DNA from: Victivallaceae bacterium
GTDB lineage: Bacteria > Verrucomicrobiota > Lentisphaeria > Victivallales > Victivallaceae
DNA length: 40,498 bases
Direction of reading: 5' to 3'
Assembly (NCBI GenBank): GCA_024405675.1
Contig: JAKSOH010000006.1
Span: 1-40,498, forward strand
Position 1 is the stretch's first letter, and each line of letters opens with the position of its first letter. This document shows, in pieces, positions 201 through 29,287 of this stretch. A model generated the notes under the pieces. That model did no database searches. It was not told the origin of the DNA and saw nothing but the letters and a program-made list of their open reading frames with translations. A program made the translations under genes and the position numbers.

Positions 201-2231
201 CTATTTCGCCAGCTTGAAAATCACGAACTCCTGACAGGAGACGCTCTTGGAAATCTCCAGCTGATCGCCGTTCTGCTTGAAGTCGACCGCTTTCCAGGAG
301 CCGTCGCCCTGCAGCAGCTCGGCCGTCTTCACCTGGAACGACGACGTCAGGCTGATGGTGTCCAGCTTGTCATAGCCTATATTGCAGATGGCACCGAGCA
401 CGCCGCCGTCCGGACGGAGTCCGCAGCGGGAGTAGACGTTCTGCAAGGCATTCGAGAAGAGGGGCAGCGATTCGGGATCAAGCTTGCGCAGCAGCGTCAC
501 CGCCCACATCTTGCGTGGACGCCCGAAGAAATCGGTCGGAACGCTGTTCACTCCGAGGGCGGTCGTCACGACCTTGCCGCCGAGCTCGTTCTCGAAGTAG
601 ACGGCGCCGGGCATGACGTAGTTGAACTCGGCGGCGTAATGATACGGCCAGGCCCTGACTTCGCTGAGAATCTCGGCCTTCGGATCCGGATTCGCCAGGA
701 ACGGGCATCCCGTGTTCTGCAGCGGGCACTTGAACTTGCATCCGGCGACCCATTCCCCGGTGGTCTTGAACGACTTGGCCTGCGGCTCGACTCCGAGATA
801 TTTCGCGAATCCGCGCTCGGCGAGCTTGAGCGCCGCGGTTCCGTCGACCAGCGCCTTCCCCGACAGGACGGTCCTGATGTCATCGTCGCTCAGCGCGTTG
901 ACAACGTCGGCAGTGAGCGTATTGACGGCCGACTTGTCGATTTTGCCGTCGTGCGACGGCAAGCCGAGTGGATCGGGGATGACGGTGTGCCAGTTGGCGT
1001 CGAGCAGCGGCTGCAGCGCATGTCCGGGATGGAACTGGAACGCCGGGTCGCGCAACACCCCGTTGGGACCGAACCAGCGGACTTTCCCGACCTCGCCCAG
1101 CAGCGTGTCGTAGAAACCGATGTGCTCGCGCAGTATGGCGCGGTGTTTCGCGACATCGTAGTCGCATTTGTTTTTGCGATCGCTGATCCAAAGCTTTCCA
1201 CCGGAAACGCCGTGCAGGAGTCCGCCGGTGATGTGAGCATGCATGCTGGTCGCCGACTTGCTCCAGAGATTGTGCGGATAGATGTCGCTTTCATCGAGAA
1301 TCGAATCGAGCGCGCCGGCGGCCGACACCTTGAACGCGGTCTGGTACATGCAGTTGTAGAAGCTGTTGATCGGGCCCCAGGTCTCCATGTAGGCGGCGTT
1401 GTTGATGCGCAGGAAGGACTCGCCCTTTCCTGCCAGGGTTCTCGCGATGTCGCCGGCGAGCAAGTACTCCCCGCCGCCGGAGCAATAGCCGCAGCGGATG
1501 GACGGATCTACCTCGTCGATCGCGTCGCGGATGAACTTCGCGAATCCCAGCACCGTCTCGCGGCGGAGCTGTTCGAACGCGACGACGTCGGGATCGTTCC
1601 ACGCCCCGGTCTTTATCTTCTCGATAAGCTGTTCGCGGGTGTAGTTACGTCCGGTGCGACGGTTGAACTCCGCCATGTGCAGGTCGCAGAAACATTCCGG
1701 CCCGTTCGAGCTATTGTTGATGGCGCGCAGGTCGTCGTCCACGAGAAAGAACGCCGGCTTCTCCGCGGCGAGCATCTTGACCATGTTGCGGATGTATTCG
1801 CGGAAGTTGGGATCGAGCATGCACAACCGGTGCAACGTGATGCCCTTGATGTTGATGATTTCGCTCCAGCCGAGTTCGCAGGTCGCAGCTCCGGCCCAGC
1901 CGTGGCCGACCGTGCTCTGGATGAGGATGCCGCACTCGATGTCGTCGTGTTCGAGCCCTTTGCATATTTTGCGGAAGGCCTCGGCGCAGAGTTTCGGCTT
2001 GGCGTAGACGTCCGTGCCGTCCGGCTGCAGCGTCATCGAGTAGGCGTTCTTCCTGACGCCGCTTGCCTCGGCCAGACGCCTGGACTCGGCGATGGTGTAC
2101 TCGATGTCATGTGGAAAGAACGGCGCGATGCTGATAAAATTCATTTTCCCCTGCGCCTGACCGGCCGTCGCGGGCAGCCCCGCGAGAGCGAACGAAACGA
2201 TCAGCAAGACGCCTACGACTTTTTTAAGCAT
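201..2231 (-). CDS. Exported glycosidase-like protein of an uncharacterised family, paralogue A
   Basis: A 676-residue protein with an N-terminal Sec signal (MLKKVVGVLL..., A/G-rich cut region about residues 20-28), so it acts outside the cytoplasm. I chose the ATG at 2231 because AGGAGG sits 7 nt upstream; the ATG two codons earlier lies almost on the ribosome site. Motifs shared with the paralogue at 2420-4480 include FFLVDDDLR (162-169), ECFC...H (179-185), RRET...IRDAIDEVDPSI..GYCSGG (about 223-253), ILDESD (311-316) and SKSA.SMHAHITGG (324-337). The Asp-rich/CFC segment resembles the region carrying the acid/base Asn-Glu in GH42-like TIM barrels, but no NE pair is present. A glycosidase-type barrel is inferred; substrate and activity are unknown. 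It lies 47 bp after tRNA-Leu and is followed by a strong terminator. Confidence 0.75.
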   Translation of the reverse strand: MLKKVVGVLLIVSFALAGLPATAGQAQGKMNFISIAPFFPHDIEYTIAESRRLAEASGVRKNAYSMTLQPDGTDVYAKPKLCAEAFRKICKGLEHDDIECGILIQSTVGHGWAGAATCELGWSEIINIKGITLHRLCMLDPNFREYIRNMVKMLAAEKPAFFLVDDDLRAINNSSNGPECFCDLHMAEFNRRTGRNYTREQLIEKIKTGAWNDPDVVAFEQLRRETVLGFAKFIRDAIDEVDPSIRCGYCSGGGEYLLAGDIARTLAGKGESFLRINNAAYMETWGPINSFYNCMYQTAFKVSAAGALDSILDESDIYPHNLWSKSATSMHAHITGGLLHGVSGGKLWISDRKNKCDYDVAKHRAILREHIGFYDTLLGEVGKVRWFGPNGVLRDPAFQFHPGHALQPLLDANWHTVIPDPLGLPSHDGKIDKSAVNTLTADVVNALSDDDIRTVLSGKALVDGTAALKLAERGFAKYLGVEPQAKSFKTTGEWVAGCKFKCPLQNTGCPFLANPDPKAEILSEVRAWPYHYAAEFNYVMPGAVYFENELGGKVVTTALGVNSVPTDFFGRPRKMWAVTLLRKLDPESLPLFSNALQNVYSRCGLRPDGGVLGAICNIGYDKLDTISLTSSFQVKTAELLQGDGSWKAVDFKQNGDQLEISKSVSCQEFVIFKLAK

Positions 2232-2278
2232 AATCATGCCTCCTTTTATGTTCTCAGTCTAGAGTTTCAAGGGAAAAG

Positions 2279-2363
2279 TGGTACGCGGCGTGGGACTTGA
2301 ACCCACACGCCGTAAGGCGCAGGAACCTAAATCCTGTGCGTCTGCCAATTCCGCCAGCCGCGC
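2279..2363 (-). tRNA. trnL-UAG: tRNA-Leu (anticodon UAG)
   Basis: The minus strand folds as a class II tRNA. It has acceptor GCGCGGC pairing with GCCGCGT, a D-arm TGGCGGAATTGGCAGACGC, anticodon stem CAGGA/TCCTG around loop TTTAGGT (anticodon TAG), a long variable arm, the T-arm GTGGGTTCAAGTCCCAC and an encoded ACCA end. The D-arm and long variable arm are typical of tRNA-Leu. The first acceptor pair would be G-U. It lies between two paralogous protein genes on the same strand, 56 bp after the upstream stop and 47 bp before the downstream start. Confidence 0.95.
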
Positions 2364-2377
2364 AACTTCAAGTTTGT

Positions 2378-2406
2378 AATATACATGGAAAGCGGGCGAC
2401 AGGCAA
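2378..2406 (-). promoter_or_regulatory. Candidate sigma70-type promoter of tRNA-Leu
   Basis: On the minus strand TTGCCT (2401-2406) and TATATT (2378-2383) are separated by exactly 17 bp, placing the start a few bases before the tRNA 5' end at 2363. It sits entirely in the 56-bp gap after the stop of the upstream lipoprotein gene. Matches to consensus are 4/6 and 5/6. Because there is no terminator after the tRNA, this promoter could also serve the gene at 201-2231. Confidence 0.55.
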
Positions 2407-2419
2407 TCGCCGCGTCGCA

Positions 2420-4480
2420 TCATCTGATTCTCAAAACCAGCGGGGCGTAGCACTCCAACCGCCTTTCCACGACGATTCCGTCCCCTGTCCTGGTGAAGTT
2501 CAGCGGCTTGTAGGAGCCGTCCTCGTCCAGGAACTCCACCGACGACACCTGTCTTGAAGTCCTGAGATCGATTTCCGTCATCGGGTCGAAACACAGGTTG
2601 ATCATGGCGAGCAGATACCCGCCATCGTCGTGCCGGCCGCAGCGCAGATGCACCGGCTGGTCCTCGCCGATGTAGAACGGCACGAGCTCCGGGTCGAGCA
2701 GATTGAAAATCCTCACGTACTCCCGCTTGAGCTCCGGCCATTCGTCGTTCACGCGGGATATCCCGACCGGCATCGCCCTGGTCACCACCGTTCCGCCGCA
2801 GGGATTCCGGTAGACGATCATCCCCGGTCCGAGCTTGGCCCCCTTGTTCTCCGCGCCTTCCGCGCAGACGAGGACGCTCCGGATTTCCGCCTCTGGCGAG
2901 ACCCGGGTCAGGTTCGGAACGGTGCCGTCGGTTTCGAACGGGATGACGTGGCCGGGACCATTGCACATGCGTTCATGCCGCGGATAGAATTCCTCTACCT
3001 TCGGCGTGCATCCAATGTAGTCGGCCATGCCGCGGCGGGCGACTTCCAGCGCGGCATAGCCGTCGAGGATCGCCTTGCCTGCCAGCACGCGCTTCAACTC
3101 GTCGTCGGTCATCGCCTTCGCCACCTGGCCGTTGATCAGGTAGACGCGGTTCCCGCCGATGAAATCGTATTGCCCGGGTATTCCGTAGCGATTGAGCTGA
3201 AGCACCTGCATGTCGAGCAGGAATCCGACGCCGCTAGAGGTATGGGTGGCGTTGAAACGCTCGCGCTCGTCGATGATCGGCGTGGTCGGTCCCATCCAGG
3301 AGACATGCTTCATTTCCGCAAGCAACGCGTCGTAGAACGGATGGTTCCTGCGCACGATGTCCTCGTATTCGCGGTTGGATTCCTGCACGTCCTTGTTCAT
3401 GATGTTGGTGAGCCAGAGCTTGGCGCCGGACATTCCGTAGAGGATGCCGCCGGTGACATGGCTGTGCATGCTGATCGCGCTCTTGCTGAAGCGGTGGCGG
3501 TTGAGAGTGTCGGATTCGTCCAGGATATGGTCGATCGCGCCGGCCATCTTGGCCGCGTAAGCACCGCGGTACATGACGATATTGAACTGTTGCGGCTCCA
3601 GCTCCTGGAAGTTGGCGTTGTGGATGCGCAGAAACGACTCGTTCCGTCCGGCGAGGACCCGGGCGATGTCGCCGGCCATCATGTTCTCGGCTCCGCCGGA
3701 ACAGTAGCCGCACGGAATCGATGGATCGACCTCGTCGATGGCGTCGCGGATAAGCTTCGCATGGGCCAGCAGCGTCTCGCGGCGCACCTGTTCGAATATC
3801 CTGAGACATGGGTCGTCGGCCGGAGCCTTCTTAAGGTACTCGACCAGTTCGCGGTCGTCGGCGAACTTGCGGGGCATTCTCTCGTTGTAGATTTTCATGT
3901 GGGACTTGCAGAAACACTCCGCCCCGTAGGCGCTGTTGTTGACCATGCGGAAATCGTCGTCCATCAGGAAGAAGGACGGGCGCTGTCTGGCAAAGGCCAC
4001 AATGGCGTCATGGATGTGCTTGCGAAACTTCGGATCGCGCAGACACATGCGGAAATTGGGTTCGCCCTTCTGGTTGACCGCGTATTCCATCGGTTCGTAC
4101 AGCATCTTGATGCAGGTCTTCCATCCCTGCCCCACGGAAGTCGTTATAAGGACTCCCGGCTTCATGCCGGAGCCCTCGAGTCCCGCCCTCAGCTCGCCGA
4201 AGGCCCGTGCCTCGCGCTCGATCGCATCGATGCGCTTGCTCGGGTAGATGGAGAACAAATATGCGTTGCGTTCGACAGACGTCGCCACTCCGGACCGCTT
4301 GGCATCCTCGATCATGAAACCGACATCGTCGGGATAGAACCGGATGACGTTGAGAAACAACATCTTCTTGTCGCCCACCGGGCGCGGTGTTCCGGTATTC
4401 GCCGCCGTTGCCGGCGTCCCGCAACCGAACACGGCGACAAGCGCGACCGCCGCCAACACGTTTGCAAACACACGCTTCAT
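2420..4480 (-). CDS. Putative lipoprotein, glycosidase-like uncharacterised family, paralogue B
   Basis: A 686-residue protein. The ATG at 4480 is chosen because GGAGG lies 9 nt upstream and the N-terminus then becomes a lipoprotein signal: MKR, a hydrophobic run, and VAVFGC with the lipid-anchor Cys at residue 20. An upstream extension of the frame to 4630 adds no sensible leader. The mature part repeats the motifs of paralogue A: FFLMDDDFR (about 171-178), NNS.YGAECFC..HM (181-195), the Arg/Asp-rich IRDAIDEVDPSIPCGYCSGG block, ILDESD and the SKSA.SMH.H.TGG block. The shared family resembles a GH42-like TIM barrel without the usual NE acid/base pair; catalytic residues and substrate are not established. 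The two genes look like an old duplication with different anchoring, one lipidated and one soluble. It diverges from the deacetylase gene at 4660. Confidence 0.75.
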   Translation of the reverse strand: MKRVFANVLAAVALVAVFGCGTPATAANTGTPRPVGDKKMLFLNVIRFYPDDVGFMIEDAKRSGVATSVERNAYLFSIYPSKRIDAIEREARAFGELRAGLEGSGMKPGVLITTSVGQGWKTCIKMLYEPMEYAVNQKGEPNFRMCLRDPKFRKHIHDAIVAFARQRPSFFLMDDDFRMVNNSAYGAECFCKSHMKIYNERMPRKFADDRELVEYLKKAPADDPCLRIFEQVRRETLLAHAKLIRDAIDEVDPSIPCGYCSGGAENMMAGDIARVLAGRNESFLRIHNANFQELEPQQFNIVMYRGAYAAKMAGAIDHILDESDTLNRHRFSKSAISMHSHVTGGILYGMSGAKLWLTNIMNKDVQESNREYEDIVRRNHPFYDALLAEMKHVSWMGPTTPIIDERERFNATHTSSGVGFLLDMQVLQLNRYGIPGQYDFIGGNRVYLINGQVAKAMTDDELKRVLAGKAILDGYAALEVARRGMADYIGCTPKVEEFYPRHERMCNGPGHVIPFETDGTVPNLTRVSPEAEIRSVLVCAEGAENKGAKLGPGMIVYRNPCGGTVVTRAMPVGISRVNDEWPELKREYVRIFNLLDPELVPFYIGEDQPVHLRCGRHDDGGYLLAMINLCFDPMTEIDLRTSRQVSSVEFLDEDGSYKPLNFTRTGDGIVVERRLECYAPLVLRIR

Positions 4481-4659: not shown

Positions 4660-5340
4660 ATGGTCAAGGTAGCATGCTGCTGGGACGACGCGACAGAAAC
4701 CGACATCCGGCTGGTAGAGATGCTGCGCAAGCACAACGCGAAGGCGACGTTCAACATCAATCTGGGATTCCATTACCAGAACTTCCGGCGCACGAACACC
4801 TGGCAGCCCAAGGGCGGAAGTCCGGCGTTCATCAACCGCTGGCTCTCGATCGCCGACCTGAAACCACTGTACGAGGGCTTCGCCATCGCGTCGCACGGAC
4901 TCTTCCACATGAACTTCGACCCGTCCAAGGTCGACGAGTTCGTCATCGACCAGACGGAGGACCGCAAGCGACTCGAGGACATGTTCCAGAGGAAGATCCG
5001 CGGCATGGCCTACCCGTGCGGCGTATGCGACGAGCTCGCAGCGTCGCGCCTCGCGGAAGCGGGATTCGAATACGGAAGGTCCACGCTGTACGTCGACGAC
5101 TTCACAAAGAACGATAATCCGCTCATCCTGAAGAGCCAGTGCCACTTCCTCGATCCGCAGTTCAAGGAGAAGTTCGCGTACGCCAAGGAACACGGCGGCA
5201 AATTCTACTTCTGGGGACACAGTTGCGAGATGCTCGACGTCAAGGAAAAATGGCAACTCTTCGACAGCTATCTCGACTTCATATCCGCCGATTCCGATGC
5301 CACCTGGGTAGATGTCATCGACCTCGTGACCGAACGATGA
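4660..5340 (+). CDS. Polysaccharide deacetylase-family (NodB/CE4-like) protein
   Basis: A 226-residue protein with a compact NodB fold pattern: WDDA (8-11) in place of the TFDDG motif 1, SHGLFH (78-83) giving the metal-binding His79 and His83, AYPCG (117-121) as motif 3, and WGHS (185-188) with a late His. CE4 enzymes use an Asp-His-His metal site to remove acetyl groups from amino sugars or xylan. There is no signal peptide, so the protein should be cytoplasmic, which suits a small imported substrate better than a polymer. The ATG at 4660 follows a G-rich ribosome site (GGGGGGAAA). Its stop overlaps the next start (ATGA), so the two proteins are translationally coupled. The exact substrate cannot be read from sequence; the changed motif 1 suggests a divergent subfamily. 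Confidence 0.85.
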   Translation: MVKVACCWDDATETDIRLVEMLRKHNAKATFNINLGFHYQNFRRTNTWQPKGGSPAFINRWLSIADLKPLYEGFAIASHGLFHMNFDPSKVDEFVIDQTEDRKRLEDMFQRKIRGMAYPCGVCDELAASRLAEAGFEYGRSTLYVDDFTKNDNPLILKSQCHFLDPQFKEKFAYAKEHGGKFYFWGHSCEMLDVKEKWQLFDSYLDFISADSDATWVDVIDLVTER

Positions 5341-11806: not shown

Positions 11807-13108
11807 ATGTCAAACACCTGCAGTCAATGCGCCGACGCCGGACGCATATTCGAACACGTCCGAACCTTCACCGAGGACATCGGAGTGCGGCTAGCCGGTT
11901 CGGCAGCAGAACATCGCGCGGCGGAATATGCCAAGACGCTTTGCGAATCGTTTGGCGCCAAATGCTCGATTGAAGAATATCCAGTAAACTCACAATGCGC
12001 TGAAAACATCCGTCTGGAAATTCTAATGGACGGCGAATGGAAACAATATCCAACCACTCTCTTCGGATCGGCGCCGACCACCGGCGGCAAAACGCTGGAG
12101 GCCGATCTCGTCCTCTTCGACTCGGCCACTGGATACCAAGCGGACGACATCTCGTTTCTCCACGACAAGGCGGTCATCCACCTTGGATGTCATCTCAAGA
12201 ACTCAGATTGCTACAGGAGACTGATGGAAGCCGATCCAAAGTTCATGCTCTTCGTCGACATCAGATACCCAGGCATTCTGCCCCTGGCGGACGGGCTGTT
12301 CCCCGCGCAGGTGGCGCGGTACGGGGCACGCCCGACCATGAACGTAGCCTACATGGACGCGCTTTCCTGGATTTCCAACCACGCCACGAAAGCGCGGCTT
12401 TGCGTCGGCGGATGCATCAGGAAGTCGACCACTCCAGTGGTAATAGCGGAATTTCCCGGCGACGCCGGTGATGACAGGGTGATATACGCCGGTTGCCATC
12501 TGGATACCCAGGCGGCAACCGTGGGAGCGACCGACAACGCGGCCGGATGCGCCGTCGTGCTGGAACTCGCCCGACTGCTTTCGCAGACATCCCACAAGGC
12601 GACGTACAAGTTGTGCTTCTTCGGAGCCGAAGAACAGTTGTCCCTTGGCTCGTCGTCCTATGTCAGAACCCATCGCGAGGAGATATCAAAACGCGGTGTA
12701 TTCATGCTGAACTTCGACTCCTGCGGTTCATCTATCGGCTGGAATACGATATCGACGGTGGCGTCATTTGAACGCGTCGAGCAGATAAGGCTCGCATACA
12801 AGGCGCGCAAGATGGGCCTGGCGATCGAACACGCAGCCGAAGCCTTCCTGGATTCATTCCCGTTCGCAGCCGCCGGGGTTCCGGCGGCGACCCTGGGGCG
12901 CGACGATTGCACAGCCGGCCAATTCAACCACCATCGCGCGGACGATGTAATTGAATACATCGACCCGACAGTCATGGCCAAGATCGTCGACATCGCAGTG
13001 GAAACGCTGTCGCAGATATCGGAATCCGAAAACGAGGAATCCATTTCGGAAATGTTCCACGGCGACGTCGAGAAACTGTGGGATGAAATATTCGGTGGCT
13101 GGAAATGA
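11807..13108 (+). CDS. M28-family zinc aminopeptidase-like protein
   Basis: A 433-residue protein with the M28 co-catalytic zinc pattern: GCHLDT (His231), GATDNAAG (bridging Asp243), GAEEQ (catalytic Glu275 and ligand Glu276), NFDSCG (Asp304) and NHHRADD (His375/376). Residues about 90-215 form an inserted segment like the PA/apical region of relatives. M28 enzymes remove N-terminal residues from peptides. There is no signal peptide (MSNTCSQCADAGRIF), so it should be cytoplasmic, whereas many M28 enzymes are exported. AAGGAG lies upstream of the ATG at 11807. Its stop overlaps the esterase start (ATGA). An amidohydrolase role on a non-peptide amide is possible and cannot be excluded from sequence. 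Confidence 0.88.
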   Translation: MSNTCSQCADAGRIFEHVRTFTEDIGVRLAGSAAEHRAAEYAKTLCESFGAKCSIEEYPVNSQCAENIRLEILMDGEWKQYPTTLFGSAPTTGGKTLEADLVLFDSATGYQADDISFLHDKAVIHLGCHLKNSDCYRRLMEADPKFMLFVDIRYPGILPLADGLFPAQVARYGARPTMNVAYMDALSWISNHATKARLCVGGCIRKSTTPVVIAEFPGDAGDDRVIYAGCHLDTQAATVGATDNAAGCAVVLELARLLSQTSHKATYKLCFFGAEEQLSLGSSSYVRTHREEISKRGVFMLNFDSCGSSIGWNTISTVASFERVEQIRLAYKARKMGLAIEHAAEAFLDSFPFAAAGVPAATLGRDDCTAGQFNHHRADDVIEYIDPTVMAKIVDIAVETLSQISESENEESISEMFHGDVEKLWDEIFGGWK

Positions 13109-15042
13109 GTGCGCGCGCAAAGTCGAGGGTATCAGTTGCGATTGCCATGGCACTGACCTTTGGCGCCGCGGCCGAATCGAGATATGGCGACATCGTCAAC
13201 GAACACTTCGTGCGGATTGCCAGAGAAAATGCGAACCGCAGAAATGCAGTCCTCGACGATGTGAACGGGGAGAGGTCCGCAAAAAACTATCGCGACTCCG
13301 TGCAGAGGAAACTCGATGGCCTATTCAGATTCCCGGAACGTACGTCACTCGATGCGAGGACGACGTTCAAGCGTGACTACGGGAAATTTTCTGTTGAAGG
13401 CATCGTATTCTTCAGCCGCCCCGGATACCCGGTGACGGCGAACCTATACCTTCCGGCAGGCAAGCGGGACGGACTTCCGGCGGTGCTATTCCTTTGCGGG
13501 CACGCAGCGGAAGGCAAGGCCTGCGACACTTACAGGACGGCCTGCATAGCGCTCGCGATGAAAGGATTCGCCGTGTTGATCGTCGATCCCGTAGAACAGG
13601 GAGAACGCCGTCAGATGATTGTTGACGGAAACTCCGTCGGCACCTGCACGAGGAACCACAATTCGCTTGGAAAGCAGCTATGTATTGTCGGCGAATGGCT
13701 GGGGGCATGGCGCACCTGGGACGCGGTGCGGGCACTAGACTACCTGGAAACCAGACCGGAAATAGATTCGCTGCGCATCGGTGTCACCGGCTGCTCGGGT
13801 GGCGGAACGCTGACTGCGTTCCTGGCGGCGGCCGACAATCGGCCGGCGGCGGTGGCTCCATGCTGCTACATCACGTCTTGGAGGCGGAACATAGCTAACG
13901 AACTCCCTGTCGACATGGAGCAGGTGGTCCCCGGTGCGTTGGAAGCGGGACTTGAGATCCCGGACCTGCTCATTGCTAAAGCTCCGCGCAAGACGCTGAT
14001 CATAGGACAGAGAAACGATTTCTTCGATGCGCGTGGCGCCACGGAGGCGTTCTCCGATGTGGCGGCAGTAAACGACCGGCTTGGCGGAGAGACCGAACTC
14101 TTCATCGGCCCGGATGCACATGGATATTCCCCTGCTGCCAGAAAGGCCATGTATTCATTCATGACTAGGATGCTGAATGGAAGAGAGGATGCATCGGAAC
14201 CAGAAATCGCCCTGCCCCCGAAGCAGGACACCTATGCCGCAAAAGGGAACGTATCATCGATTGCCGGTCAGAAGTTCCTTTGGCAAATATCCGGCGAAAT
14301 GGCCGCGAAACTGGCAGGAGGACGAAAATCCGAAGATCCGGTCGCCGCATTGCGCAAGATTCTTGGGTTTGTGGATCCAGGTGTTCCGGAATACCGGAAC
14401 GTCCCACACTCGATGGTCTCCGGTAAGATTATCTCGCGCTACGCACTGGAATCCCCTGACGGGGAAATAGAATGCGTTCTCAAGCGGGTGGACCAAGGGG
14501 GATTCTTCCATTTCACCGCGGAACCGGCGATTCTGTATGTTGGAGACGACACCGGAAACGAAGAGAAGATTGCAAACCTCCAGGTTGCAAATGGCACGAC
14601 GACGTTTGTCCTCGATTTATGGGGAACTGGGGAGCTGACACCAAACGGTTCCTCTCCGCTTCAGGGACGGAACTTAGAAGACCAATACGGATTCGACTAT
14701 CACTATGCCTCGCTGGGACTGATGTCGGGTGATCTTATCGTCGCAAAACGCGTACGCGGCATCGTGGCCGCGGTTAACCTGCTCGCAGCAAACGGCGCAA
14801 GAAAAATCAAAGTCGTGGCCTCCGGACGCGCCAGGATTCCGGCGATTATGGCTGCAGCGCTTTCCGACAGGATCGATTCGATCGAGATACAAGGGAGCGT
14901 ACCGTCGTTCGCCGCCGAGGCGTCAGAGATGACCACGGAATTTCCTCTTTCGTGCATTGTTCCGAGCATAGTCGGAACCGTCGAAATCGACGACCTGATG
15001 CGCGCCATGGGCAAGAAGGCGCTGGTTTCGCCGCAGGAGTAG
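13105..15042 (+). CDS. Secreted alpha/beta-hydrolase (acetylxylan-esterase-like) with a second degenerate hydrolase half
   Basis: A 645-residue protein. A Sec signal is visible (VAIAMALTFGAAAES), so it acts in the periplasm or outside. The first half is an active-looking alpha/beta-hydrolase: PVTANLYLP (109-117), LCGHAAEGK (130-138), VDPVEQGER (160-168), nucleophile Ser231 in GCSGGG (229-234), a probable acid in GQRNDFFD (301-308) and His339 in GPDAHGY. The second half (about 400-645) repeats the pattern up to a nucleophile elbow, but the matching stretch reads VVASGRAR, without the Ser-centred motif. This organisation resembles acetyl-xylan-esterase-type proteins of planctomycetes. Deacetylation of a plant glycan is the likely role and fits the GH10 locus that converges on it. 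It overlaps the peptidase gene by 4 nt and ends 9 bp from the convergent GT2 stop. Confidence 0.82.
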   Translation: MSARAKSRVSVAIAMALTFGAAAESRYGDIVNEHFVRIARENANRRNAVLDDVNGERSAKNYRDSVQRKLDGLFRFPERTSLDARTTFKRDYGKFSVEGIVFFSRPGYPVTANLYLPAGKRDGLPAVLFLCGHAAEGKACDTYRTACIALAMKGFAVLIVDPVEQGERRQMIVDGNSVGTCTRNHNSLGKQLCIVGEWLGAWRTWDAVRALDYLETRPEIDSLRIGVTGCSGGGTLTAFLAAADNRPAAVAPCCYITSWRRNIANELPVDMEQVVPGALEAGLEIPDLLIAKAPRKTLIIGQRNDFFDARGATEAFSDVAAVNDRLGGETELFIGPDAHGYSPAARKAMYSFMTRMLNGREDASEPEIALPPKQDTYAAKGNVSSIAGQKFLWQISGEMAAKLAGGRKSEDPVAALRKILGFVDPGVPEYRNVPHSMVSGKIISRYALESPDGEIECVLKRVDQGGFFHFTAEPAILYVGDDTGNEEKIANLQVANGTTTFVLDLWGTGELTPNGSSPLQGRNLEDQYGFDYHYASLGLMSGDLIVAKRVRGIVAAVNLLAANGARKIKVVASGRARIPAIMAAALSDRIDSIEIQGSVPSFAAEASEMTTEFPLSCIVPSIVGTVEIDDLMRAMGKKALVSPQE

Positions 15043-26089: not shown

Positions 26090-29000
26090 ATGTTCAAGAA
26101 ATTCATATTGCTTTTGTTCATGCTTTCATGCCTAGTCGCGCTATCCGAAGTCATAGTGGTGAAACCAGACGCATACAAAAACCTGAATGGATGGGAAGTC
26201 CAGCAGACGGTGCTGCTGAGCACAGGGAAAGGCAACAAGGCATCGACGACCATCAACGCGGCCGAATCCGGCAAGTACTACATGTACGTCAGCAGCATCA
26301 ATCACGAACAGGATCCCGCTAGAGCCTGGCGGCAGACACACATCATCATCAACGGCACCGATCTCGGCAGATTCTGCGACGCCTTTGGAAGGGGGCAGAA
26401 AAAGCCGGGGCTCGGCTGGACCACAGGAAGGAAGGTTACGCTCAAAAAAGGCGCCAATGAATTGAGTCTGTCATCGCACGCCGGCAATTGCCGGCTTGGT
26501 GACATTATCTTCTCCACGGAAAAGATCGATCCAGTCGCACAAGCCCAGAAAGCGGAAAACGCTCCGGTCGACTATTCCAAACTGACCGGCGATTTGCCAA
26601 ACATTCCTAAGCTTGACGGGATTTTCGGCCGTCCGAAGGGCAATCCGAACGGGCCGAAGTTGCTTGTTCTCTCCGGAAGCCGTCCGTGGATAGGCAATGG
26701 CCTTGGCTCCGCCTTCGGCAGGGCCGGAGCTTCCGTGAGCCTCCTGAACAGCGTCTATCTCGGCGGACTCGGCGGGGCCAGCATCAAGATCACGCCGACC
26801 GACCCCGTGGAGCCCAAACCCGTCGACTACGTGACACCGGAGTTCAAGCAGCTGTCCCGCTACAAGGCGGTGATCATAAACGACATCAACGCCTCGAACC
26901 AGGATAAGCTTTTCACCGAGGATCGAGTGGAAGCGATGAAGCAGTATGTTGCGAATGGCGGGGTGCTCGTGCTCACCATCAATGCGCCGGAATCACTCGG
27001 TGACCTGCTCCCAGTCGAACTGGGCGACATGGTCGATCTTGACAATGACGATCCGGTCTATGCAGTGCGCCCGGTCTCGGCCAAGTTCTCGCGGTTGCCG
27101 GAACGCTGGCAAATCGTCGACCCCTACAAGGAGGCGACGCTGACCAAAGATGCGAAGACCGTATCAGCCATCGTAGACGAAAAGGGCAAAGAAAACGGAA
27201 TATACATTGCATGCAAGAAATATGGAAAAGGCAGCGTCTGGTTCATGAATACGCAGCGGACCCGTCGCCAGACTGCGGTTCAGATGTTCAACTGGTGCTA
27301 CTGCGGTGTTCTCTTCGTGTCGACCGTCAACGAAGCGGCAGGACTCAATCTCGATGTTGAGAAATCCCTGACCACCAAGGCGGAGCCGCTGAAGCCCAAG
27401 ACCATTGCATCGGCAGAGGCCGAGATAAGGGTGCCGAAACTGGATCTCTCGAAGGACGATGCCAAGGTCGAGGTGAACGGAAACGAGGCCAGATTCTCCA
27501 GCGGATACAGGTTCGTCAGCAACGGCAAGTCGCTGGACATCACCTATCCCGACGGCAACACCTACGTCAGGAACCTGAGGCCCGTGTTCAAGCTCCCCAA
27601 GGGCGCGGCCGCGGTCGACGACGCGTCGACCGCCGAGGCCACGAACGCCAAGGACAACACGATATTGTCCAAGGAGCAGTTCGCCATCAAGAGCATGAAG
27701 GGCGGGAGCAATCTCACCATCGAGCTCGTCGGAGACAAGGGGTCCGCGATCGAGTGGCAGTTCGTAACCGGCAAGGCGGATGTCGACGGCAGGCAATTCG
27801 CAGGAATCGGCGAGAAGTTCTCCATCAGGAAACTTGGGGATTACGCGAAGCTGCTCTACTCGGTGGGACCGAGGTACGAGATAGACGCCGACAACGTCAA
27901 CATCAGGCGCTTTGCCTGCTACCAGCCGCCGCGCGGATACAACGACTACGATGCGACTGGAAAGGCCGACGTGGACACCCGTCCCTGGGGATTCTTCTCG
28001 GACGGACAGCCGTTCACCTGGGTCGAGGGCAAGAAGGCGGTGTTCAGCGAATTCATCGACGACCTGTTCCCGATCAAGGTCCAGATGCGGATGAAGAAGG
28101 GACAGAAGACCGTCAGTTCCTTGATCGACCTGACTTTCGGCCGGGTCAAGGCTCCGCAGGAGACCGCAATCATCTGGCACATGGCCGGTCCTGCAAGCGC
28201 GAACACCACAAACGACTGGATGGCGATGTACCAGTTCCAGCGCCACAATCTGAGGAAGAAGTTCGGAGTTCCGGAAAAGTGCCCGCAGACCTACGCGGCC
28301 TTTTCCGATACGTGCAATGCGAACGAGAGACTCGCGGCGATCGAGGATGCCGCAGAATTTGGATTCAGGATCATGCACGTTCCGATGTGCCCTTCCCCCA
28401 TGCATGCGTTCGGGCACATGAAGATAGCTGAAACGATAAGGGAGAACGGCATGGGCGCCTATCCGTGGATGCCCTGCGCCCACGATCCCGACAAGACCCC
28501 GACGGTCAAGGCGCATCCGGACTGGTTCCTGAAGGACGAGAAGGGCAACTTGACGCAGTTCTTCAACCACTTCTACGTCGCCGACATGTACAATCCGGAT
28601 TTCCGCAAATGGTTCATGGGAAAGGTCGACGAGATGATCGACTCCGGTGTCGTCACCTGCTGGTATGACATGGGCGGAGCCGCCAGCGGCATGATGGACT
28701 TCAAGAAGGAGGAGTCGAAGGTCGGCCTCTGGGCGCAGATGGAGATATTCCGGCACTGGTACGAGCGCGGCGGATGGGCGACCACCGAGGGCATGAACCC
28801 GATCGTCAACGACGGCTATCTCTTCTTCGCCGACCGGTACAAGGGACCGTTCATAGGACGGGAATTCCAGCTGTTCGGCGTCCAGTGCCAGACCAGCGTC
28901 AAGGACCACCTCTACTTCGATTACTTCCGCACCAGCATGTACTGCACGTTCTTCCCGATCGTCATGAACAACTGGCGCCAGAAGTTCGAGAGCATTGAGG

Positions 29001-29287
29001 GCGAAAACCGAATGGTTGCAAGAATCAAGCACTATCTGCCAGCCATCAACGCCGCCTTGGACAACGGCATGCCGTTCATACGGGAAACGCCGTTCGGCAC
29101 CACATGGAGCAGCGACAAAGGCGGTGCCATATTCTGTTTCGACGGAGTCAATGACATCGACATAAAGATTCCGGATGGCTATTACGCGGAGTCCATGACC
29201 ACAGCGAAGGACAATCTGAAAAAACTGAACGGAGTGCTGCCTAAGAAGGTGGATCCGGAGACGATTATCATCATCCGCAAAAAGTAA
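26090..29287 (+). CDS. Exported multidomain protein: GATase-like domain followed by a GH36/GH31-like barrel
   Basis: A 1065-residue protein with a Sec signal (MFKKFILLLFMLSCLVALS). Residues about 20-150 form a beta-rich region like a carbohydrate-binding module. About 187-420 resemble a type 1 glutamine-amidotransferase/ThuA-like fold (KLLVLSGSRPW, YKAVIINDIN, MKQYVANGGVLVLT), but I see no catalytic Cys nucleophile elbow. A beta-sandwich follows, then a TIM-barrel-like region (about 690-1000) with HDPDKTPTVKAHPDWF and CWYDMGG, where Asp860 sits where clan GH-D enzymes place the nucleophile. An alpha-glycosidase-type activity is inferred, with weak support. GAGGAG precedes the ATG. It has its own promoter and terminator and therefore looks monocistronic. 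Confidence 0.75.
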   Translation: MFKKFILLLFMLSCLVALSEVIVVKPDAYKNLNGWEVQQTVLLSTGKGNKASTTINAAESGKYYMYVSSINHEQDPARAWRQTHIIINGTDLGRFCDAFGRGQKKPGLGWTTGRKVTLKKGANELSLSSHAGNCRLGDIIFSTEKIDPVAQAQKAENAPVDYSKLTGDLPNIPKLDGIFGRPKGNPNGPKLLVLSGSRPWIGNGLGSAFGRAGASVSLLNSVYLGGLGGASIKITPTDPVEPKPVDYVTPEFKQLSRYKAVIINDINASNQDKLFTEDRVEAMKQYVANGGVLVLTINAPESLGDLLPVELGDMVDLDNDDPVYAVRPVSAKFSRLPERWQIVDPYKEATLTKDAKTVSAIVDEKGKENGIYIACKKYGKGSVWFMNTQRTRRQTAVQMFNWCYCGVLFVSTVNEAAGLNLDVEKSLTTKAEPLKPKTIASAEAEIRVPKLDLSKDDAKVEVNGNEARFSSGYRFVSNGKSLDITYPDGNTYVRNLRPVFKLPKGAAAVDDASTAEATNAKDNTILSKEQFAIKSMKGGSNLTIELVGDKGSAIEWQFVTGKADVDGRQFAGIGEKFSIRKLGDYAKLLYSVGPRYEIDADNVNIRRFACYQPPRGYNDYDATGKADVDTRPWGFFSDGQPFTWVEGKKAVFSEFIDDLFPIKVQMRMKKGQKTVSSLIDLTFGRVKAPQETAIIWHMAGPASANTTNDWMAMYQFQRHNLRKKFGVPEKCPQTYAAFSDTCNANERLAAIEDAAEFGFRIMHVPMCPSPMHAFGHMKIAETIRENGMGAYPWMPCAHDPDKTPTVKAHPDWFLKDEKGNLTQFFNHFYVADMYNPDFRKWFMGKVDEMIDSGVVTCWYDMGGAASGMMDFKKEESKVGLWAQMEIFRHWYERGGWATTEGMNPIVNDGYLFFADRYKGPFIGREFQLFGVQCQTSVKDHLYFDYFRTSMYCTFFPIVMNNWRQKFESIEGENRMVARIKHYLPAINAALDNGMPFIRETPFGTTWSSDKGGAIFCFDGVNDIDIKIPDGYYAESMTTAKDNLKKLNGVLPKKVDPETIIIIRKK

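Follow-up and report, generated by a model that had tools for sequence, protein, structure and literature searches.

A Protein Family of Lentisphaeria with a GH42-Like Scaffold and a Conserved Asp Pair in Place of the Asn-Glu Motif

The first 40,498 nucleotides of contig JAKSOH010000006.1 (assembly GCA_024405675.1, Victivallaceae bacterium), called the window below, encode two related proteins, P0001 and P0002. They represent a protein family which is real, well conserved, and unnamed in Pfam and NCBIfam. The family is homologous to glycoside hydrolase (GH) family 42, and its predicted architecture is that of GH42 and GH164. After strand 4 of the barrel, an Asp pair is conserved instead of the Asn-Glu of GH42, and strand 7 retains its terminal Glu. 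These proteins are probably glycosidases, in which a strand-4 Asp would act as the acid together with the strand-7 Glu on the GH42/GH164 scaffold. The two genes are as follows.

201..2237, minus strand: P0001, 678 aa; exported by a signal peptide that has no lipobox Cys
2420..4480, minus strand: P0002, 686 aa from the ATG at 4480; lipoprotein-type signal (VFGC)

Family Members and Distribution

Neither P0001 nor P0002 has a match in Pfam or NCBIfam; the sole Pfam row, RAD51D_N, showed an expect value (E) of 0.21, far under the cut-off. The search of PDB with P0002 by phmmer gave nothing credible (best E 0.38). Homologues were gathered by similarity, not by motifs. The alignment and profile A1 include 62 of 66 full-length distinct open reading frames (ORFs); L019, L050, L051, and L071 were excluded due to odd starts, fusion, or truncation. 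Among 45 distant loci, 42 yielded 43 members, and L142, L159, and L160 (two GH42 picks and one PF14883 place) yielded none. Two plasmid records, one from Subdoligranulum (Bacillota) and one from Streptomyces (Actinomycetota), were found by tblastn and then the profile, and their ORFs match A1 at 1.4e-104 and 3.2e-103. A1, the 43 distant members, and the two plasmid ORFs constitute a set of 107 homologues. They come from three phyla or more, and only one pair among them is over 90% identical.

The members of A1 showed no convincing match to any carbohydrate family in Pfam or NCBIfam (maximum E 1), and ten distant members showed no Pfam or NCBIfam match at E 0.01. The GH42 model, PF02449, matched neither P0001 nor P0002 at E 10, none of the 62 sequences of A1 at E 1, and none of the ten distant members at E 0.01. 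No match to PF14883 (GHL13/GH153) was seen in P0001, P0002, A1, or the ten distant members, nor anywhere in the genome of the window. The Pfam GHL10 model also matched none of these proteins, despite the fold match described below. A description of the family was not found in a literature search, which does not prove its absence in print.

Six matching loci are observed in the genome of the window (1.64 Mb, 71% complete): the P0001/P0002 pair and one locus on each of the contigs C52, C68, C128, and C20. The C20 locus is cut by the contig end. The paralogue on C68 is interrupted midway through the barrel by an in-frame TAA (L003:2149-2151, G000:C68), owing to either a pseudogene or an assembly error. 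The closest named records are from Victivallaceae metagenome-assembled genomes (MAGs) from horse feces and a Lentisphaeria MAG. Relatives of P0002 were found in 22 of 40 related genomes. With the A1 profile, members were detected in at least 69 of 288 genomes of the phylum and at least 39 of 151 genera; these counts are lower bounds, as at most four candidates per genome were scored.

Predicted Fold and Homology to GH42

The sequence-only reading of this DNA had proposed a GH42-like TIM barrel of the glycosidase kind, and the comparisons of both sequence and structure agree with it. The barrel alignment was compared by hhalign with 12 GH42 proteins of Lentisphaeria from the same bacterial family (Prob 96.8, E 2.4e-10, 281 columns). 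This comparison set was chosen by motif: it consists of the 12 out of 20 GH42 loci whose ORF shows N-E..C-x-C. Control comparisons were far weaker, with E of 0.07-0.58 for GH1, GH13, GH10, LepA, and MutS from the window and 0.10-0.85 for 20 column shuffles. Against single GH42 sequences, E ranged from 1.1e-8 to 1.7e-3, and the weakest, L109, showed a Prob of only 15. The best two rows for the A1 profile against PDB were the beta-galactosidases 9ta3 and 3tts, around the zinc ligands (both E 0.028, not significant alone). GH42-type matches are abundant in the bacterial family of the window genome: they occur in 55 of 60 genomes, with a maximum of 27 in one genome, and many of the proteins are 700-1700 aa long.

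Models were generated with AlphaFold2 and the A1 alignment for full-length P0002 and for its barrel alone. The full-length model has a mean predicted local distance difference test score (pLDDT) of 90.8 and a predicted template modeling score of 0.90. It shows a (beta/alpha)8 barrel, a Rossmann-like domain, and a beta-sandwich, as in GH42 and GH164.

3293..4372, minus strand: (beta/alpha)8 barrel, P0002 residues 37-396; folded alone, pLDDT 92.5

For the whole chain, Foldseek placed the GH164 structure 6t5o first (E 5.4e-21), followed by GH42 4uni (7.7e-20). The corresponding VIA scores were Z 18.2 for PgaB (306 residues), 17.9 for 6t5o (537 aligned, root-mean-square deviation (rmsd) 4.5), 17.9 for GH151 6tvk (556 aligned), and 17.5 for GH42 3tts (564 aligned, rmsd 5.2). 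For the barrel, the top VIA scores were tied within 1 Z: PgaB 21.9 (310 aligned, rmsd 3.5), a beta-1,2-glucosyltransferase from Ignavibacterium 21.7 (337, 3.6), Cwp19 21.5 (293, 3.8), and GH42 1kwg 21.1 (330, 3.9). In Foldseek with the barrel alone, beta-amylases head the list (1b90, E 1.0e-8) and 3tts is near the top. The whole-chain ranking and the tied barrel scores thus indicate the architecture of GH42/GH164, and the barrel singles out no one family.

The Strand-4 Asp Pair, Strand-6 Arg, and Strand-7 Glu

Conserved residues expected in the pocket are located at or just after the ends of strands 4, 6, and 7.

3953..3961, minus strand: P0002 D174-D175-D176, after strand 4; from conservation in the 107 homologues
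1731..1739, minus strand: P0001 D167-D168-D169, equivalent of P0002 174-176; from the alignment
3626..3628, minus strand: P0002 R285, end of strand 6; from the model and conservation
3509..3517, minus strand: P0002 E322-S-D324, end of strand 7; from the barrel model, hhalign, and conservation
1284..1292, minus strand: P0001 E316-S-D318, equivalent of P0002 322-324; from the alignment

In the P0002 model, strand 4 consists of residues 171-173 and is directly followed by D174-D176. Position 174 is D or E in the 107 homologues, D175 is present in all of them, and D176 in 106, the remaining one having Glu. In other words, an Asp-rich segment stands where Asn-Glu was expected, as had been read from the sequence, with D/E-D-D in all homologues except for one D-D-E. 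At the place of the Asp pair, N-E-Y is present in the GH42 comparison proteins. An alignment of 27 members shows no fully conserved Glu in the stretch from strand 4 to C189. The acid/base Glu of GH42 is therefore genuinely missing, and no acid other than the Asp pair is invariant in this region. R178 is present in about nine-tenths of the 107 homologues.

Strand 6 (residues 283-285) ends with R285. E322 is at the end of strand 7, which spans 318-321 in the full-length model and 318-322 in that of the barrel alone. Both R285 and E322 are found in 107 of 107 homologues, and position 324 is always D or E. By hhalign, E322 is aligned with the Glu of the L-M-E motif of GH42, which is the nucleophile. 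The earlier suggestion that the canonical Glu pair is lacking is thus half right: the strand-4 Glu is absent, but the strand-7 Glu is kept (E322 in P0002 and E316 in P0001). Clan GH-A is characterized by a (beta/alpha)8 barrel with catalytic acids on strands 4 and 7; in the family, the model and conservation put acid residues at both places, where they may have this role.

Gal42 has been modeled on 3TTS: Asn147-Glu148 and Met304-Glu305 are its catalytic pairs, and Cys113, Cys153, Cys155, and Cys158 constitute a zinc cluster (PMC8573354).

A Putative Zinc Site

Cys and His residues around strand 4 likely correspond to this cluster.

4043..4045, minus strand: P0002 C146, first ligand of a putative GH42-type zinc site; from the alignment with GH42
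3899..3916, minus strand: P0002 C189-F-C191-K-S-H194, the remaining three putative ligands; from the alignment with GH42
1821-1823, minus strand: P0001 C139, zinc-type ligand; from the alignment
1677..1694, minus strand: P0001 C182-F-C-D-L-H187, zinc-type ligands; from the alignment

In hhalign, C146, C189, C191, and H194 fall on the four GH42 cysteines. Positions 146, 189, and 191 are Cys in 106 of the 107 homologues, and position 194 is His or Cys, mostly His, in 106. The sole exception is L140 (G151; L140:462-2525, +), in which all four ligands are lost and E-D-D, R285, and E322 are kept. That all four are missing together while the pocket stays intact is consistent with a structural metal site and argues against a catalytic metal. 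The enzyme work on 3TTS, as cited in PMC8573354, indicated that zinc stabilizes the fold and takes no part in the catalytic cycle. The best reading is a putative zinc site of the GH42 structural type at C146, C189, C191, and H194. The proposal that these Cys and His residues bind a metal for a new chemistry does not hold, since they align with the structural zinc ligands of GH42 and L140 has lost all four with the pocket kept; a catalytic metal site was rejected on the same grounds. L140 is a natural zinc-free test case.

Catalytic Mechanism

In the proposed mechanism, E322 would correspond to the nucleophile of clan GH-A, and one Asp of the D175-D176 pair would take the proton-donor role of the GH42 Glu. 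The structural zinc would hold the loop after strand 4. R285, R178, Y/F291, and D/E324 are expected to line the pocket as further conserved residues, and the proteins may form trimers. This assignment of E322 as nucleophile and a pair Asp as acid/base is preferred because of the homology with GH42 and GH164. Retaining chemistry would be slightly preferred over inverting, because GH42 and GH164 retain; a shorter Asp would also suit the spacing of an inverting enzyme.

Several observations weigh against this mechanism. The hhalign alignment with GH42 puts DDD in an insertion, not paired with Asn-Glu, and counted from the proline before strand 4, DDD is about two residues ahead of the GH42 Asn-Glu. 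The placement of D174-D175-D176 onto H465-D466-D467 of PgaB, with D175 on D466, depends on an hhalign match of Prob 3% and P 0.014 with two template sequences. Within the pair, the acid may be either D175 or D176. In PgaB, the strand-7 Glu was not proposed as the nucleophile. The gene context names no substrate either: 20 regions of relatives, with 121 neighbor ORFs within 4 kb (113 scanned against Pfam), were compared with 18 control regions (228 ORFs), and no shared partner was found.

Among the alternatives, a substrate-assisted N-acetylhexosaminidase is unlikely, although it has some precedent. In GH84, one Asp polarizes the 2-acetamido group and the other donates the proton. The Asp pair of the family would act in the same manner, and E322 would only bind the sugar. 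GH84 enzymes use two neighboring Asp residues as a "DD motif", which in human OGA is D174-D175 (PMC4263850). The barrel of the family also matches that of PgaB, which hydrolyzes deacetylated poly-N-acetylglucosamine and has H465-D466-D467 after strand 4, and the divergent neighbor of P0002 is a CE4-type polysaccharide deacetylase gene (4660-5340, plus strand; PF01522, 4.1e-9; without a signal peptide). However, E322 is fully invariant and aligned with the GH42 nucleophile, and no deacetylase is a shared neighbor in the 20 regions.

An inverting glycosidase is slightly less probable still. A catalytic pair on strands 4 and 7 is found in GH14 beta-amylase. Similarly, the strand-4 Asp could be the acid, with E322 as the general base activating water. 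The barrel matches beta-amylases (1b90 in Foldseek; 3voc in VIA with Z 20.4, 321 aligned, rmsd 4.2), and the shorter acid would widen the gap between the two carboxylates. These matches are not outstanding, however, as the rows lie within 1-2 Z. The whole-chain relative GH164 retains (PMC7105311), and GH42 has an acid/base and nucleophile pair (PMC8573354).

It is quite improbable that the proteins are not hydrolases but glycan-binding GH-like proteins, or glycosyl transferases or phosphorylases on the same scaffold: the Ignavibacterium transferase is tied with PgaB, yet several acids of the pocket are strictly invariant, as is typical of catalytic residues, and P0001 and P0002 are exported to where activated donors would be scarce. 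The scheme of GH151/GH29, with a strand-4 Asp nucleophile and a strand-6 acid, was rejected, as the end of strand 6 is the invariant R285 and not an acid.

Relationship to Known Families

The preferred reading, a glycosidase whose acid is an Asp after strand 4 and which keeps the Glu of strand 7, can be compared with five known families. GH42 (3tts, 1kwg) shares the predicted three domains, the hhalign homology, the strand-7 Glu, and the four-ligand zinc site around strand 4, which is putative in the family. It differs in that the family has Asp-Asp for Asn-Glu, mostly His as the fourth zinc ligand, and is below the detection of PF02449. The Cys cluster is a variable feature within GH42, and its four positions are aligned in the family. 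The GH164 beta-mannosidase Bs164 (6t5o) is the best whole-chain Foldseek match and has three domains and the strand-7 Glu (E297). It is described as a retaining, trimeric enzyme of three domains with E160 and E297 (PMC7105311), and the comparison of residues follows this description. Its acid/base is a Glu (E160), whereas no Glu is conserved after strand 4 in the family, and the identity is ~10%.

The C-terminal domain of PgaB (GH153; 4p7l, 6au1) is the top barrel match with ties, and has H-D-D after strand 4 and a strand-7 Glu (E607 in E. coli). The probable acid is D466, which corresponds to D474 in Bordetella (PMC5933820, PMC13366581). The match to the PgaB barrel covers just the first half of the family chain, PgaB carries a deacetylase domain instead, and the profile match is not significant. 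Cwp19 of GHL10 (5oq2, 5oq3; barrel Z 21.5) has Asp-Asp, D195-D196, at the place of the GH42 Asn-Glu, but Gly328 at the place of the strand-7 Glu. In a published superposition, D195-D196 was on Asn-Glu of GH42 and E607 of PgaB was on the strand-7 Glu (PMC5765458). The GH151 alpha-L-fucosidase iso2 (6tvk) is similar over the whole chain (Z 17.9, 556 aligned) and has an Asp after strand 4. That Asp is the nucleophile, and the acid/base is a Glu on strand 6 (PMC10154630), where the family has R285.

The strand-4 Asp thus has precedent in PgaB and Cwp19, in which the strand-7 Glu is lost (Cwp19) or the second residue is unsettled (PgaB). In contrast to GH153 and GHL10, the family unites two features on a GH42-type chain, and both are conserved across its members: the Asp pair after strand 4 and the Glu of strand 7. 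It is probably a variant within the clan GH-A/GH42 kind and does not constitute a new kind, and it is unnamed relative to Pfam and NCBIfam. We consider it nearly as likely as not that this is an undescribed GH family, judged against Pfam and NCBIfam, which occurs in three phyla or more, has been amplified in Lentisphaeria, and in which the GH42/GH164 machinery has an invariant Asp pair for Asn-Glu. It could be an intermediate between canonical GH-A and GH153/GHL10, with its own acid/base chemistry.

The Two Genes and Their Neighbors

P0001 and P0002 are 38% identical over the whole length (BLASTP, E 7e-146, 678 aligned positions). Both ORFs are confirmed, and the motifs DDD.R..NNS..G.ECFC..H, RDAIDEVDPSI.CGYCSGG, ILDESD, and SKSA.SMH.H.TGG, which had been noticed from the sequence, fit both translations. 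Sharing of the motifs by chance is excluded, because the core residues are invariant or nearly so in the 107 homologues. In the alignment of 27 members, NNS and SKSA..SMH are limited to closer relatives. A GGAGG-like ribosome-binding site precedes each gene, and a tRNA-Leu gene (2279-2363, minus strand) lies between them.

The identity is 74% between P0001 and L039 and 76% between P0002 and L007. Both L039 and L007 are from G006, a genome of another species of the same genus, and are on different contigs. P0001 and P0002 are 37% identical in the alignment that also holds these two sequences. As each copy has its own ~75% orthologue on a different contig, the duplication predates the species, and the tandem arrangement is not conserved. 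The idea that the pair arose by recent duplication was rejected on these grounds. The closest homologues of P0002 have AGC, PGC, or GGC at the place equivalent to the lipobox-like VFGC, and many other family members have no signal peptide. Localization may differ between orthologue groups. As for a division of labor after duplication, one copy is indeed lipid-anchored and the other is not, but the split is old, the adjacency is not conserved, and the division itself is a guess.

The deacetylase gene is followed by P0003 (5340-7415, plus strand, ~690 aa), which has no Pfam, NCBIfam, or PDB sequence match. In the survey of gene context, AXE1-like esterases flank members in three of the 20 regions and none of the 18 controls; the three arrangements are similar and probably not independent. 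Other clusters of similar neighbors are seen in both sets, for example one with five foreground and three control ORFs. Since no partner recurs beyond the AXE1-like esterases in three regions, the substrate cannot be read from the neighborhood. An AXE1-like esterase is also encoded in the window (13105-15042, plus strand), and its homologues are those flanking members in the three regions. At 26090-29287 (plus strand), the window encodes a 1065-aa protein with sub-threshold matches to GHL15 and the GH42 trimerization domain, and its relatives are found in other sampled regions.

Implications

The family is present in about one-fourth of the sampled genomes of the phylum, often in multiple copies, yet it is missed by surveys relying on Pfam and NCBIfam models. 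Because a single GH42-type scaffold carries both the Asp pair after strand 4 and the Glu of strand 7, the mechanistic question of GH153/GHL10, for which the acid is known and the second residue is unsettled, becomes testable in a relative.

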